From assembly GCA_946614685.1 (NCBI GenBank), contig CAMOHF010000009.1, positions 1 to 11,702 on the forward strand: DNA of 11,702 bases, written 5' to 3'. The position numbers and the translations under genes are program-made. Source of the DNA: an uncultured Clostridia bacterium (lineage in GTDB: Bacteria > Bacillota > Clostridia > Lachnospirales > Lachnospiraceae). Below, piece after piece: positions 1 through 4,156 of this stretch (within the stretch, counting starts at the first letter, position 1; each line of letters opens with the position of its first letter). Below the pieces are notes generated by a model, which did not search any database, was not told where the DNA came from, and worked only from the letters and a program-made list of their open reading frames with translations.

Positions 1-13
1 GGAGAGCTATGAG

Positions 14-328
14 TTGATCTCCGACAGCCCGGCGAAGCGGATCTACGATGCGGTTAGGCGGATTCCGTACGGCCGTGTCGCGACCTATGCGCAGGTTGCG
101 GAGATGGCGGGCGACAGGAAGATGGCCAGGGCAGTGGGAAATGCACTGCACAAGAATCCCGATCCTTTGAACATTCCGTGTTACCGCGTGGTGAACTCCA
201 AGGGAGAACTTGCCGGGGAGTTCGCATTTGGCGGCGCCGGCAGGCAAGCGGAGCTCCTTATCGCGGAAGGCGTTGAGGTCGTTGACGGCAAGGTGGATTT
301 GGAGCGGTTTGGGTGTGAAGATGAATAA
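14..328 (+). CDS. MGMT/ATL-family alkyltransferase-like DNA-binding protein
   Basis: A 104-residue protein of the O6-methylguanine-DNA methyltransferase C-terminal fold. Seen: the IPYGRVATYAQVA opening (residues 17-29), the RAVGNAL recognition-helix motif (39-45) and the active-site segment NIPCYRVV (53-60) with the acceptor Cys56 retained, then a C-terminal EGVEV segment. It is about the usual length for a stand-alone domain without the N-terminal part of Ogt/Ada. Family members bind O6-alkylguanine in DNA and either transfer the alkyl group to the Cys or, in ATL proteins, flag the lesion for excision repair. The usual His after the catalytic Cys (PCHR) is Tyr here, so transferase activity is uncertain. 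The TTG at 14 follows a GGAGAG at 1-6, but the frame stays open to the window edge, so the true start could lie upstream. The gene overlaps the next one by 8 nt. Confidence 0.85.
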   Translation: MISDSPAKRIYDAVRRIPYGRVATYAQVAEMAGDRKMARAVGNALHKNPDPLNIPCYRVVNSKGELAGEFAFGGAGRQAELLIAEGVEVVDGKVDLERFGCEDE

Positions 329-1776: not shown

Positions 1777-1799
1777 GAAAGTGAAAAGGAGGGATGGTC

Positions 1800-2132
1800 A
1801 TGAACGCATTACTGGGTGGCCGTATAAAGGCATTAAGAACAGCGAAGAATTTTACACAGGAGCAGCTCGCTGAACACCTTGGGATAAGTAGGCAAAAGTA
1901 TGCCAGAATTGAGAACGGTGCGAACAGTATTACGCTTGATATCCTTACAAAGATTGCAGGCATGCTTGATGTGACGGTTGGTGATATCACCAGAGTTCTT
2001 GATGAAGAACCGGCAGTAGCGTATCGCGCCGGAACAGATATTTCCTCCTCCGAGAAGATTCTGGATATGTTGGATCTATTCTATGCCAATAAACACATGT
2101 ATACCAAACTACAGCATAGAAACAGGACATAG
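1800..2132 (+). CDS. XRE-family helix-turn-helix repressor
   Basis: A 110-residue protein with an N-terminal Cro/CI-type helix-turn-helix (about residues 7-62). Seen: GGRIKALRTAKNFTQEQLAE, GISRQKYARIENGANSITLDIL and LDVTVGDI, all standard for the fold. The C-terminal 45 residues (SSSEKILDMLDLFYANKHMY) form a helical tail without a recognised domain and could carry dimerisation or protease recognition. The ATG at 1800 was preferred over the ATG at 1794 because AAGGAGGG (1786-1793) directly abuts the latter. It is the first gene of a three-gene operon and sits behind an operator-like inverted repeat, so autorepression is likely. By analogy with ImmR-ImmA of ICEBs1, the downstream metallopeptidase is a candidate for cleaving and inactivating it. 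Confidence 0.9.
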   Translation: MNALLGGRIKALRTAKNFTQEQLAEHLGISRQKYARIENGANSITLDILTKIAGMLDVTVGDITRVLDEEPAVAYRAGTDISSSEKILDMLDLFYANKHMYTKLQHRNRT

Positions 2133-2143
2133 GAGGACTCTTC

Positions 2144-2962
2144 ATGCATGATAGTAGGAAAAGAGAAATACGGATACAAGCTGATTCTTTTCGAGAAAAG
2201 TGCAAGATCAGTCGATACGGGATTATAGATCTTTTCAAGGAGTGTGATCGTCTGGGTTACAAACTAATCAGATATCCGCTCGGAGAGGATGCGGATCTTG
2301 GTTTTGCATTGAAAAAAGATGATGATATTATTGTTTTTATAAACTCAAGTATCAGACTTTCCAGAGAGATTTTTACATTGGCGCATGAGATAGGGCACAT
2401 TGTTCTTCATCTCAACGGTGAGAAATCTTTTATTGATAACAAGGCAACGATTGCAGACGGCAACACTGATGAGATAGAGCAGGAAGCAAATTATTTTGCG
2501 GCCAATTTATTGATGCCGTCAGATGAAGTCGAGCGTTTTATTGATCTGGAACTTCCGGGATTTGAGAAGAACGGATTATCAGGCATGGATATAGCCAGAA
2601 TCATGTCCGAGTTTAATGTCAGCTATGATGTGGCCTTAAACAGACTTGAGTCGTTAAGAAAGATTGATAGTAATCAAAAAACACGTTTGGAAACTGAGCG
2701 GAGTGAAAAACGGGTTGGAAACCTTCTTAAAAGTATTGGCGGTAACTCGAGATTGAACATAGCGGGCCATGAAATCGTTATTCCGTACGAGTACATCGAC
2801 TACGTTATATACAATTACAATCATAATGCGATTCCCAAAGAAACTTTGGAGAAAGTTCTGGAGTGCTATCAGCTTACGATAGAAGATATAAGTGATAGAC
2901 TTGTGGAGTTCCCTGAGGAAGATGATGATCTTGATGATTTGATAGGGGGGTTGGAGGATTGA
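2144..2962 (+). CDS. ImmA/IrrE-family metallopeptidase (peptidase M78)
   Basis: A 272-residue protein with the M78 zinc-peptidase core. The HEIGH motif is at residues 81-85 inside REIFTLAHEIGHIVLH, and the downstream acidic ligand region EQEANYFAANLLMP (112-125) supplies Glu114 or Glu112. A helix-turn-helix-like segment follows (about 146-171, SGMDIARIMSEFNVSYDVAL), as in many ImmA-type proteins. The last 80 or so residues are an extension ending in a very acidic tail (EEDDDLDDLIGG). Family members cleave XRE/DdrO-type repressors in response to DNA damage or quorum signals. AGGAGG (2131-2136) overlaps the stop of the XRE gene and lies 7 nt before the ATG. The 3' end overlaps the PIN gene by 4 nt. 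Its likely substrate is the XRE protein of the same operon. Confidence 0.9.
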   Translation: MHDSRKREIRIQADSFREKCKISRYGIIDLFKECDRLGYKLIRYPLGEDADLGFALKKDDDIIVFINSSIRLSREIFTLAHEIGHIVLHLNGEKSFIDNKATIADGNTDEIEQEANYFAANLLMPSDEVERFIDLELPGFEKNGLSGMDIARIMSEFNVSYDVALNRLESLRKIDSNQKTRLETERSEKRVGNLLKSIGGNSRLNIAGHEIVIPYEYIDYVIYNYNHNAIPKETLEKVLECYQLTIEDISDRLVEFPEEDDDLDDLIGGLED

Positions 2963-3615
2963 GAGCCTCTTTGGATACCAATGTGATCATACACCTTTAC
3001 AAGGCGGGACTGCAGAGCGTGTTGTTTGATGTTTTTGATGAAGGTGTATTCATATACGAACAGATTCGAAATATTGAACTTGAGAATCATGGGCAAGATG
3101 TGCTTGATACAGTTGATGCTGATATAGCATCAGGGAGAATAGAAGTATATACGGATCAAAAACTGAAAGAATTAGCAGTCTACAGACTGTTTGATAACAA
3201 CTTCAAAGAAAACAGGCTTTTGTATGGGGCCGGAGATTTGGGAGAAGTTTATGCGATTTCATTGGCGCAGACATTAGGAGCGTATTCGCTGGTGACGGAC
3301 GACACAAAACAAGGTGGTCCATATATGTCACTGCTTCAGTTTGAAGACGATGTTATGCCGTTTACATTTGCTGATGTTTTGATCCTAAGATACTTGATGG
3401 GGATAGCTGAAGCAGATCAAACGGTTGCAGATTTTGATGAAGTCAACACAGCATCTGATCTGAACTGGGCATTTCGAAGTCAATTATCAAAATTCATAAA
3501 GCGATTCCTTAAGGATCCGTATAGAGAAGAGGATGTCACATGGATTCGGGAACTTGAAAAGAAGAATGAAATAAACCTAAAAGACAAATTAATATACCTG
3601 AGTAAATTGCTATAG
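2959..3615 (+). CDS. PIN-domain protein, putative ribonuclease toxin
   Basis: A 218-residue protein with the acidic metal-binding motifs of PIN ribonucleases. Seen: LDTNVII at the N-terminus (Asp6), an acidic helix RNIELENH (Glu40/Glu42), GDLGEVYAI (Asp93, Glu96) and LVTDD (Asp114, Asp115). The core covers roughly residues 1-125; a C-terminal region of about 90 residues, with many charged residues, is not recognised and is longer than in compact VapC toxins. The start is a TTG overlapping the ImmA stop (TTGA). It is the only plausible start, since a stop in this frame lies at 2935-2937 and no ATG or GTG intervenes before the LDTN motif. A weak start with tight overlap would keep the level low and coupled to the peptidase. 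PIN proteins outside toxin systems include RNA-processing enzymes, so toxicity is inferred from context. Confidence 0.8.
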   Translation: MRASLDTNVIIHLYKAGLQSVLFDVFDEGVFIYEQIRNIELENHGQDVLDTVDADIASGRIEVYTDQKLKELAVYRLFDNNFKENRLLYGAGDLGEVYAISLAQTLGAYSLVTDDTKQGGPYMSLLQFEDDVMPFTFADVLILRYLMGIAEADQTVADFDEVNTASDLNWAFRSQLSKFIKRFLKDPYREEDVTWIRELEKKNEINLKDKLIYLSKLL

Positions 3616-3627
3616 GATATGGAAAAT

Positions 3628-3651
3628 AAGGATCTCTCCGGAGGTCCTTTT
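3628..3651 (+). terminator. Rho-independent terminator of the XRE-ImmA-PIN operon
   Basis: AAGGATCTC and GAGGTCCTT pair (9 bp, one T-G pair) around a TCCG loop and run into a short T-tract. It closes the operon 12 nt after the PIN stop codon. Confidence 0.8.
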
Positions 3652-3675: not shown

Positions 3676-3704
3676 TTGCCAAACCAGAACAAATGTTCTA
3701 TACT
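3676..3704 (+). promoter_or_regulatory. SOS-type promoter of the 95-residue gene
   Basis: TTGCCA (3676-3681, 5 of 6 to consensus), a 17-nt spacer and TATACT (3699-3704, 5 of 6). The LexA box fills the downstream half of the spacer and touches the -10, so LexA binding would block polymerase. The predicted transcript start is near 3711, about 32 nt before the ATG at 3743. Confidence 0.8.
3686..3699. promoter_or_regulatory. LexA binding site (SOS box)
   Basis: AGAACAAATGTTCT contains a perfect GAAC-N4-GTTC palindrome, the core recognised by LexA (DinR) in Gram-positive bacteria, extended by one further A/T pair on each side. It lies between the -35 and -10 of the promoter for the gene at 3743. 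Confidence 0.8.
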
Positions 3705-3742
3705 AAAATGTACACCATTACAGTTTGAGATGGGGTGCGTTT

Positions 3743-4030
3743 ATGGCATACGAGGATTTAAAACCGATCGATGTGATCTGCGAGCATACGGCGGATGGAG
3801 AGATTATACCGCTGAAGCTGCGCGTGAAGGATGACAGCGGAGAGTATCAGTCGTATCGGATACATGCGTATAAGGATTTGTCCGGACAGGGGGCGTACGA
3901 TACGCAGGATGGGATTTATGTGACGAATTCCACGATACATTTCCTGTGCAGTATTACGGTGTTCGGACGGACGCGGAATGTAAGGCTGTACTACAAGTCG
4001 GATGAGGGCATCTGGCGAATGGCGGCGTAG
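3743..4030 (+). CDS. Conserved-looking 95-residue protein of unknown function, LexA-controlled
   Basis: A 95-residue soluble protein. Features seen: an N-terminal YEDLKPIDVICEHTADGEIIP segment, alternating polar/hydrophobic stretches suggesting a beta-rich fold (IIPLKLRVKDD, YRIHAYKDL, IHFLCSITVFG, NVRLYYK), and a C-terminal aromatic end (GIWRMAA). There is no signal peptide, membrane helix or Cys cluster. I recognise no named domain; from memory, similar short proteins occur in Lachnospiraceae, possibly near Y-family polymerase genes, but I cannot verify this. The ATG at 3743 follows a GGGGTG at 3732-3737; an in-frame TTG at 3725 is less likely. The promoter with an embedded LexA box makes DNA-damage induction the best functional clue. 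A strong terminator follows at 4115, so it is monocistronic. Confidence 0.75.
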   Translation: MAYEDLKPIDVICEHTADGEIIPLKLRVKDDSGEYQSYRIHAYKDLSGQGAYDTQDGIYVTNSTIHFLCSITVFGRTRNVRLYYKSDEGIWRMAA

Positions 4031-4114
4031 AGGGATGGCGTAAGACAGATGATAAGAACAAGATAACGTCGAGGATTATGAGGAGATCCTGGATCCCGAT
4101 TCCAAGAACACCAG

Positions 4115-4149
4115 CACCCGCAGTGTGAAAGACTGCGGGTGTTTTTTTT
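4115..4149 (+). terminator. Strong Rho-independent terminator
   Basis: CACCCGCAGT and ACTGCGGGTG form a perfect 10-bp stem with a GTGAAAG loop and an eight-T tract (4142-4149). It separates the SOS-controlled gene from the cyclase operon. Confidence 0.95.
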
Positions 4150-4156
4150 CTTTCTG

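Follow-up and report, generated by a model that had tools for sequence, protein, structure and literature searches.

The systems that come closest to the locus analysed here belong to the small accessory parts of bacterial translesion polymerases. ImuB-C is a small β domain with a conserved C-terminal tryptophan, encountered alone with DinB or together with UmuC and YolD (PMC3765255), and it has been described as coupled to polymerases of the YqjH type, mostly in Clostridia (Timinskas and Venclovas, PMC6511836). Its modelled structure is a barrel that has no close relatives in the PDB, and within ImuB the domain has been modelled as contacting ImuA and the PHP domain of DnaE2 (PMC12926913); standalone forms beside the genes of DnaE-type polymerases have been published, too (PMC6511836; PMC8072749). 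As far as the Gram-positive bacteria are concerned, UmuD is given as undetected among them in PMC6511836. Variants of YolD have been reported whose similarity is confined to the N-terminal arm, and in one such variant the arm is fused to an unrelated domain (PMC12926913).

The locus of interest, located in a stretch of DNA of 11,702 bases (the window) from a gut bacterium of the Lachnospiraceae, consists of a gene for a 95-residue protein and its promoter, the features being summarized in Table 1. The promoter TTGCCA-N17-TATACT with a palindrome in its spacer, as given in a preliminary description made from the sequence alone, was confirmed at its coordinates; it scores 10 of 12 matches with a spacer of 17 nt, chance promoter-like matches being common (a mean of 2.3 per shuffled region of 901 bases), and the last T of the palindrome AGAACAAATGTTCT is at the same time the first base of the -10 element. 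The terminators claimed on both sides were also recovered, the upstream hairpin having a stem of 9 bp and a short T tail; it was seen on folding and was absent from the output of the terminator scan that found the downstream one. The sequence GAACNNNNGTTC occurs once in the window (0.24 expected), and 42 of 200 shuffles of the window contain at least one GAAC-N4-GTTC, so that the presence of the site in the window says little by itself.

Table 1 Features of the window around the gene for the 95-residue protein
Feature	Position	Strand	Basis or remark
DNA_binding_1 (alkyltransferase type) ORF	2-328		Pfam
XRE regulator (HTH), Peptidase_M78 (ImmA type), then overlapping 218-aa ORF	1794-3615		Pfam for the first two
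Terminator-like hairpin, upstream	3628-3649	+	9-bp stem, short T tail; fold -11.5 kcal/mol
-35 element TTGCCA	3676-3681	+	sequence scan
LexA box (putative) AGAACAAATGTTCT	3686-3699; core GAAC-N4-GTTC 3687-3698	+	palindrome in the spacer, touches the -10 element
-10 element TATACT	3699-3704	+	sequence; TATNNT directly after 61/65 perfect homologue boxes
Probable ribosome-binding site GGGGTG	3732-3737	+	inferred from sequence
95-aa ORF	3743-4030	+	ATG 3743, stop 4028-4030
Product of the 95-aa ORF	3743-4030	+	ImuB-C-like all-β domain; predicted accessory subunit of a Y-family polymerase
Intrinsic terminator, strong, downstream of the 95-aa gene	4113-4153 (4113-4143 in the terminator scan)	+	12-bp stem, loop of 7, T run

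Concerning the protein itself, no fitting family was found in Pfam, NCBIfam, PHROGs, PADLOC or the sequences of the PDB, in agreement with its earlier description as domain-less; a match to DUF4333 (E 0.029, 21 residues) has been taken as chance. A single-sequence search of 299 genomes from the window's taxonomic family detected homologues in 35. Profile searches of protein space yielded 194 homologues for the family of the window protein (the window family) and 427 for a more distant one introduced below (the bridge family); among the 120 matches listed for each, one has a Pfam domain, none of those listed for the bridge family having any, and the named ones are called hypothetical protein in the former case and hypothetical or uncharacterized in the latter. 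Likewise, no Pfam or NCBIfam family fits the 38 aligned members of the bridge family (alignment A4). Literature searches, supplements aside, gave no paper recognisable as describing the Lachnospiraceae family, nor is it named in parts 1 and 2 of the COG-based study PMC3998124.

The AlphaFold2 model of the 95-residue protein is six-stranded and all-β (pLDDT 93.7, pTM 0.82). In the alignment of 95 window-family sequences (A3), the residues I12, P23 and W91 are invariant and R27 is conserved in at least 90% of the sequences, there being no second basic position at that level. At one locus (L118) the match covers only a part of the domain, the copy at another (L221) is flagged with an internal stop, and several genomes exhibit 2–5 matches; the gene may thus often be gained, duplicated and lost.

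The putative LexA box is found throughout most of the family. With regard to 76 Lachnospiraceae homologue loci—the 77 named Lachnospiraceae-type loci minus one with too little upstream sequence—a perfect GAAC-N4-GTTC is present within 150 bp upstream in 65 and a site with at most one mismatch in 71, the corresponding numbers for 22,034 control windows being 15 and 798; these loci are related by descent, and the homologue counts and the Fisher values are therefore not independent. A perfect box is missing from 11 of the 76, and five (L066, L099, L103, L109 and L118) do not possess even a site with one mismatch. A smaller sample of 30 loci, which includes the window's own locus and overlaps the larger set, contains the box within 130 bp of the matched start in a perfect form in 21 and with at most one mismatch in 28 (control windows: 4 and 154 of 5405). 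Directly behind the 65 perfect boxes, TAT follows in 62 and TATNNT in 61. In the genomes carrying the family, the same site precedes, within 200 bp, both recA (perfect in 22 of 28, at most one mismatch in 27 of 28) and lexA (8 and 27 of 30 loci, respectively), these counts standing without a control set of their own.

In the window's genus, lexA and recA have only sites with one mismatch. The lexA gene of the window's own genome (G000) is preceded by GAACAAATGTGC-TATACT, and in both this genome and another one of the same genus (G180), lexA carries with one mismatch the site GAACNNNNGTTCTATANT, combining the box and the -10 element, whose sole perfect match in either genome lies before the gene for the 95-residue protein. 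The recA gene was not found in G000, which is 64% complete, and the strict Bacillus-type LexA pattern has no match there. The scan of the genome for the box, suggested in the preliminary description, showed no enrichment, GAAC-N4-GTTC being much rarer with 11 sites than its reversed control with 80; nine of the other ten sites are within or overlap ORFs of at least 237 codons, the tenth being within or overlapping an ORF of 50 codons.

Because it is conserved at the homologues and precedes recA and lexA, GAAC-N4-GTTC is most likely the LexA box of the group, and the 95-residue gene is, as judged from its promoter, very likely under LexA control and a member of the SOS regulon. Its box matches the motif before lexA and recA of the relatives, the sites of its own genus being one mismatch off, so that the expectation of finding the box at both these genes holds in related genomes. 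The previous assignment of the product to the SOS response has gained support from the same observations and from the 65 perfect boxes among the 76 loci; the possible lack of conservation upstream of orthologues, on which that assignment could have failed, was examined and conservation was found instead, 71 loci retaining the box with at most one mismatch.

A profile search of genomes revealed full-length distant homologues outside the window's taxonomic family, i.e. the bridge family, matches being obtained in 61 of 391 genomes of the class and in 19 of 299 of the phylum (8 and 3 of them, respectively, from the window's own family). Outside the family, 68 genomes have a match, and 38 of these contributed the 39 loci analysed (L227–L265), referred to as the outside loci. 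A gene for a Y-family polymerase adjoins on the same strand in 24 of these loci, spanning 12 taxonomic families, as compared with none of the 57 lexA and recA control loci with similar flanks. The polymerase is situated upstream in 21 of the 24, with 49–242 bp between the end of its match and the gene (532 bp in L235), and downstream in the remaining three, 14–16 bp away; the Pfam domain IMS was confirmed in all four polymerase frames scanned (L121, L228, L243 and L253). With regard to the box, the 21 copies that follow a polymerase all lack a perfect one of their own within 250 bp, whereas all three copies in front of the polymerase and 11 of the 15 solitary ones possess it. For the 21 copies, the polymerase itself is preceded by a perfect box in 12 cases and by one with at most one mismatch in 17, three of the four polymerases without a box having 10 bp or less of sequence before the match. 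From this placement, the gene appears to be LexA-controlled via either the polymerase operon or its own promoter. Among the Lachnospiraceae-type loci taken together with one phage and one plasmid (77 + 1 + 1 = 79), many of which have flanks shorter than 9 kb, a Y-family polymerase is found within 9 kb in four, one of them being the plasmid pCY186.

The plasmid pCY186 from Butyrivibrio proteoclasticus encodes in a row a Y-family polymerase, a YolD-like protein and a protein of the window family; the 16 kb examined have no perfect LexA box, three sites with one mismatch being located before the operon. Among 79 genomes from the genus to which G805 belongs, 49 are matched by a query that includes the YolD arm, some of the matches thus being YolD only. 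Three of the 30 loci analysed from this genus (L287, L291 and L293) exhibit the order polymerase–YolD–gene, L293 being probably the same place as pCY186 since both the polymerase and YolD are identical. Four others possess, directly behind the polymerase, an in-frame fusion of the N-terminal arm of YolD (MPRADRASQF...) with the window-family domain, so that the linkage to the polymerase concerns 7 of the 30 loci overall. Three of the fusions are at least 97% identical to the query, and the fourth one, at 61% identity and without a stop, argues against decay. The polymerases of the fusion operons are preceded by two one-mismatch boxes each in three cases and by a perfect box in the fourth, and 12 of the remaining 23 loci have a perfect box of their own within the stretch scanned. 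A search for the YolD arm across the other homologue loci then collected brought no further fusion. The fusion fits the published pattern of the arm-only YolD variants (PMC12926913). As for the window's genus, its gene for the Y-family polymerase lies at another place, with YolD behind it (L272 in G180, L277 in G000), and the window protein would therefore act in trans; two one-mismatch LexA boxes, weaker than the perfect box of the window gene, are present upstream of the polymerase at L272.

The relatives are thus often found beside polymerases or fused to parts of the polymerase machinery, and the window protein is therefore probably a small subunit of that machinery. The preliminary description had offered three guesses and proposed to look for homologues beside Y-family polymerase genes or behind LexA boxes. 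The outside loci answer to both, with 24 of 39 beside a polymerase and 11 of the other 15 behind their own box; of the guesses, the polymerase partner obtained strong contextual support from these loci and the YolD-arm fusions, while the checkpoint and the nuclease modulator gained none.

A second line of evidence concerns the Pfam family DUF6504, which we take to be ImuB-C on the basis of genomic context and a Caulobacter match. The profile comparison (hhalign) gave 99% over 86 columns for the window family versus the bridge family. For the bridge family versus DUF6504, the value was 96%, with about 79 columns aligned and a single-comparison E of 8e-10, and a deeper profile gave 95.7%. When compared directly, the window family and DUF6504 reached 3–8%, which is not significant, and merging both families into one profile with the window protein in the lead gave 77% against DUF6504 over only 23 columns, so that the link of the window family to DUF6504 passes through the one bridge family. 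The two significant pairs scored 47–101. As controls, the columns were shuffled 100 times per pair in a first set of four pairs and 150 times per pair in a second set of two, and 21 unrelated families were compared; these scored up to 20.7 and reversed profiles up to 14.5. The outliers were a single shuffle out of the 100 for three pairs of the first set (about 132–136 each), one of 150 in one pair of the second (131 over 5 columns) and one unrelated family with all three queries (132–136 over 7–15 columns); they have been taken as program artefacts because of their tiny aligned lengths, seen for all but the outliers of the first set. A DUF6504 match is absent from the window protein (Pfam, E 1) and the 38 bridge-family members, nor is the family among the best 25 of the 37 Pfam families matched by the 95 window-family members; as the Pfam threshold was not reached, the window protein is not filed as a member of PF20114.

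The tryptophan near the C-terminus is conserved in the alignments (invariant W91 in A3, W73 in A5), and the six strands of the window-protein model follow one another as in the DUF6504 model, which has one extra short strand, the strand order alone being compared. The fold of the window protein is accordingly predicted as mostly β, presumably a small barrel as in ImuB-C, and the window family is, with the profiles taken into account, probably a distant relative of ImuB-C. In one genome, a DUF6504 gene directly adjoins the gene of a DnaE-type polymerase. DUF6504 and the bridge family can occur together, as seen in genome G529, where each of them is matched on a contig of its own. The 'two subgroups of YqjH polymerases' that PMC6511836 describes as coupled with ImuB-C may include the bridge family.

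Based on the above results—the box and its conservation, the polymerase linkage of the relatives, the YolD-arm fusion and the profile homology, all of them read from sequence—it appears that the 95-residue protein is probably induced in the SOS response and serves a translesion complex around a Y-family polymerase as a small, ImuB-C-like accessory subunit. In the established pathway, DNA damage leads to the RecA filament, the cleavage of LexA and the release of the promoter. Here, LexA would occupy AGAACAAATGTTCT within the spacer of the promoter and block RNA polymerase; upon damage, the RecA-stimulated cleavage of LexA would free the promoter, and the β-barrel protein of 95 residues would be made and join the Y-family polymerase complex as its accessory subunit, with a presumed role in lesion bypass. 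In Clostridia and their relatives, the subunit would be produced either from the LexA-controlled operon of the polymerase or, where the gene is solitary, under the control of a box that belongs to it. The window gene would represent the solitary kind, its lineage having freed the gene from the polymerase operon, and its product would act in trans, its target being the Y-family polymerase that shares another locus of the genome with YolD. In the fusion form, the YolD arm would anchor the barrel in the polymerase, whereas the free form would have to bind unaided or with RecA, YolD or the replicase as an intermediary; by analogy with ImuB-C, one may guess at contacts with RecA and, in PolC or DnaE1, with the PHP domain. 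A more general and rather speculative view would be that the small subunits of translesion polymerases are exchangeable in Gram-positive bacteria, the YolD-type arm bearing either an SH3 core or an ImuB-C-like barrel, with the Lachnospiraceae barrel as a free, strongly LexA-controlled third subunit acting in trans beside polymerase and YolD. In this view, the free barrel may attach the translesion polymerase to a stalled PolC or DnaE1 replicase through the PHP domain of the latter, as ImuB-C is modelled to dock on that of DnaE2 (PMC12926913).

The distant relationship to ImuB-C would also allow for another role, compatible with that of a polymerase subunit, namely an adaptor that recognises damaged DNA and guides polymerases and other repair proteins to it, a role that Aravind and colleagues proposed for ImuB-C (PMC3765255). 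The conserved basic position R27 might speak for DNA binding; of the 12 invariant or nearly invariant positions listed, however, no other is basic, and the fusion to a polymerase-binding arm suggests a protein contact, so that such an adaptor seems rather unlikely. Damage checkpoint genes are often solitary with a strong LexA box of their own, as the window-family gene mostly is, and the product could in principle be an SOS-induced protein of a different kind, such as a checkpoint protein or an inhibitor of cell division, its polymerase neighbours reflecting just the shared LexA control. This is improbable in view of the linkage to polymerases in 12 families, in both gene orders and accompanied by the YolD-arm fusion, all of which exceed co-regulation; moreover, the model is compact and all-β without any helix long enough to cross the membrane, unlike the division inhibitors of the YneA and SidA types.

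The XRE-ImmA operon adjoining the window gene, the occurrence of one phage copy and the multiple copies in some genomes could be taken to indicate an anti-phage, toxin-antitoxin or phage gene riding on the SOS response. The neighbours, however, seem to be incidental. The operon had previously been given as XRE-ImmA-PIN; its HTH and Peptidase_M78 parts are backed by Pfam, whereas the 218-residue ORF named PIN has no Pfam match at E 1. The alkyltransferase-like gene noted upstream was found again as the DNA_binding_1 match. For the PIN ORF, ImmA and GGDEF genes, all within 1.5 kb in the window, no counterpart turned up at up to that distance from the orthologue of the same genus, a comparison that does not reach the XRE and alkyltransferase genes; in the flanks examined, the XRE, ImmA and PIN genes occur at none of the other homologue loci, and an alkyltransferase match occurs at just one of these (L083, 2.5 kb downstream). 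Clustering of the genes around the 79 loci gave no neighbour common to more than 19, the larger clusters resembling, by eye, response regulators, ABC transporters and signalling proteins. The phage copy (L120:11995-12276, Lachnospiraceae phage PV036455.1) is from one record of 50,697, two further scans of viral contigs yielded no copy of the family, and the PADLOC scan of 29 family members produced one weak match only (E 0.018). A defence or phage gene is thus highly improbable, as opposed to the accessory subunit of a polymerase. A chance palindrome before a gene outside the LexA regulon, for which the sites in shuffled windows and the lack of genome-wide enrichment might be quoted, is less probable still, the same promoter position being kept in 65 of the 76 loci.

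A few side observations should be added here. The phage copy is on the strand opposite to most of the surrounding genes and near the terminase gene, and no perfect LexA box is present in the 24 kb of this phage examined. In the window, a zinc-ribbon-type ORF at 1018-1518 stops at an in-frame TGA (1327-1329), its frame remaining open and, by eye, coding-like up to the stop at 1516-1518; it is possibly a broken gene or a sequence variant. An ORF of 66 residues at 1518-1718, upstream of the XRE-ImmA operon, has sub-threshold matches to proteins of the YokU/MqsA-antitoxin type (E 8.8e-5 and 4.8e-4).

With the 95-residue protein seen as a polymerase subunit, hundreds of unnamed small proteins from Lachnospiraceae and other Bacillota would gain a likely role in damage-induced mutagenesis, and the YolD-arm fusion would offer a testable lead on how Gram-positive bacteria build a complex like Pol V. 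As for the known systems, the standalone ImuB-C (DUF6504, PF20114) shares with the window protein the small all-β form, the invariant C-terminal tryptophan and, in the models, the strand order; it is found in operons with Y-family polymerases, like the relatives of the window protein, the bridge family matching it in full length at 96%. It differs in that the window-family gene usually stands alone behind its own LexA box, away from the polymerase. In the ImuA-ImuB-DnaE2 mutasome, a related domain is carried by the C-terminus of ImuB (PMC6511836; PMC3765255), but there an inactive polymerase forms the rest of the protein, and the domain is modelled as contacting DnaE2 (PMC12926913). YolD/YqjX (PF08863), the proposed Gram-positive counterpart of UmuD, is likewise a LexA-controlled small partner of Y-family polymerases, and in four genomes its N-terminal arm is joined to the window-family domain; it has, however, an SH3-type core (PMC6511836) and a polymerase-binding arm (PMC12926913), whereas the window protein has neither a YolD match in Pfam nor the arm, and the window's genome encodes both proteins.
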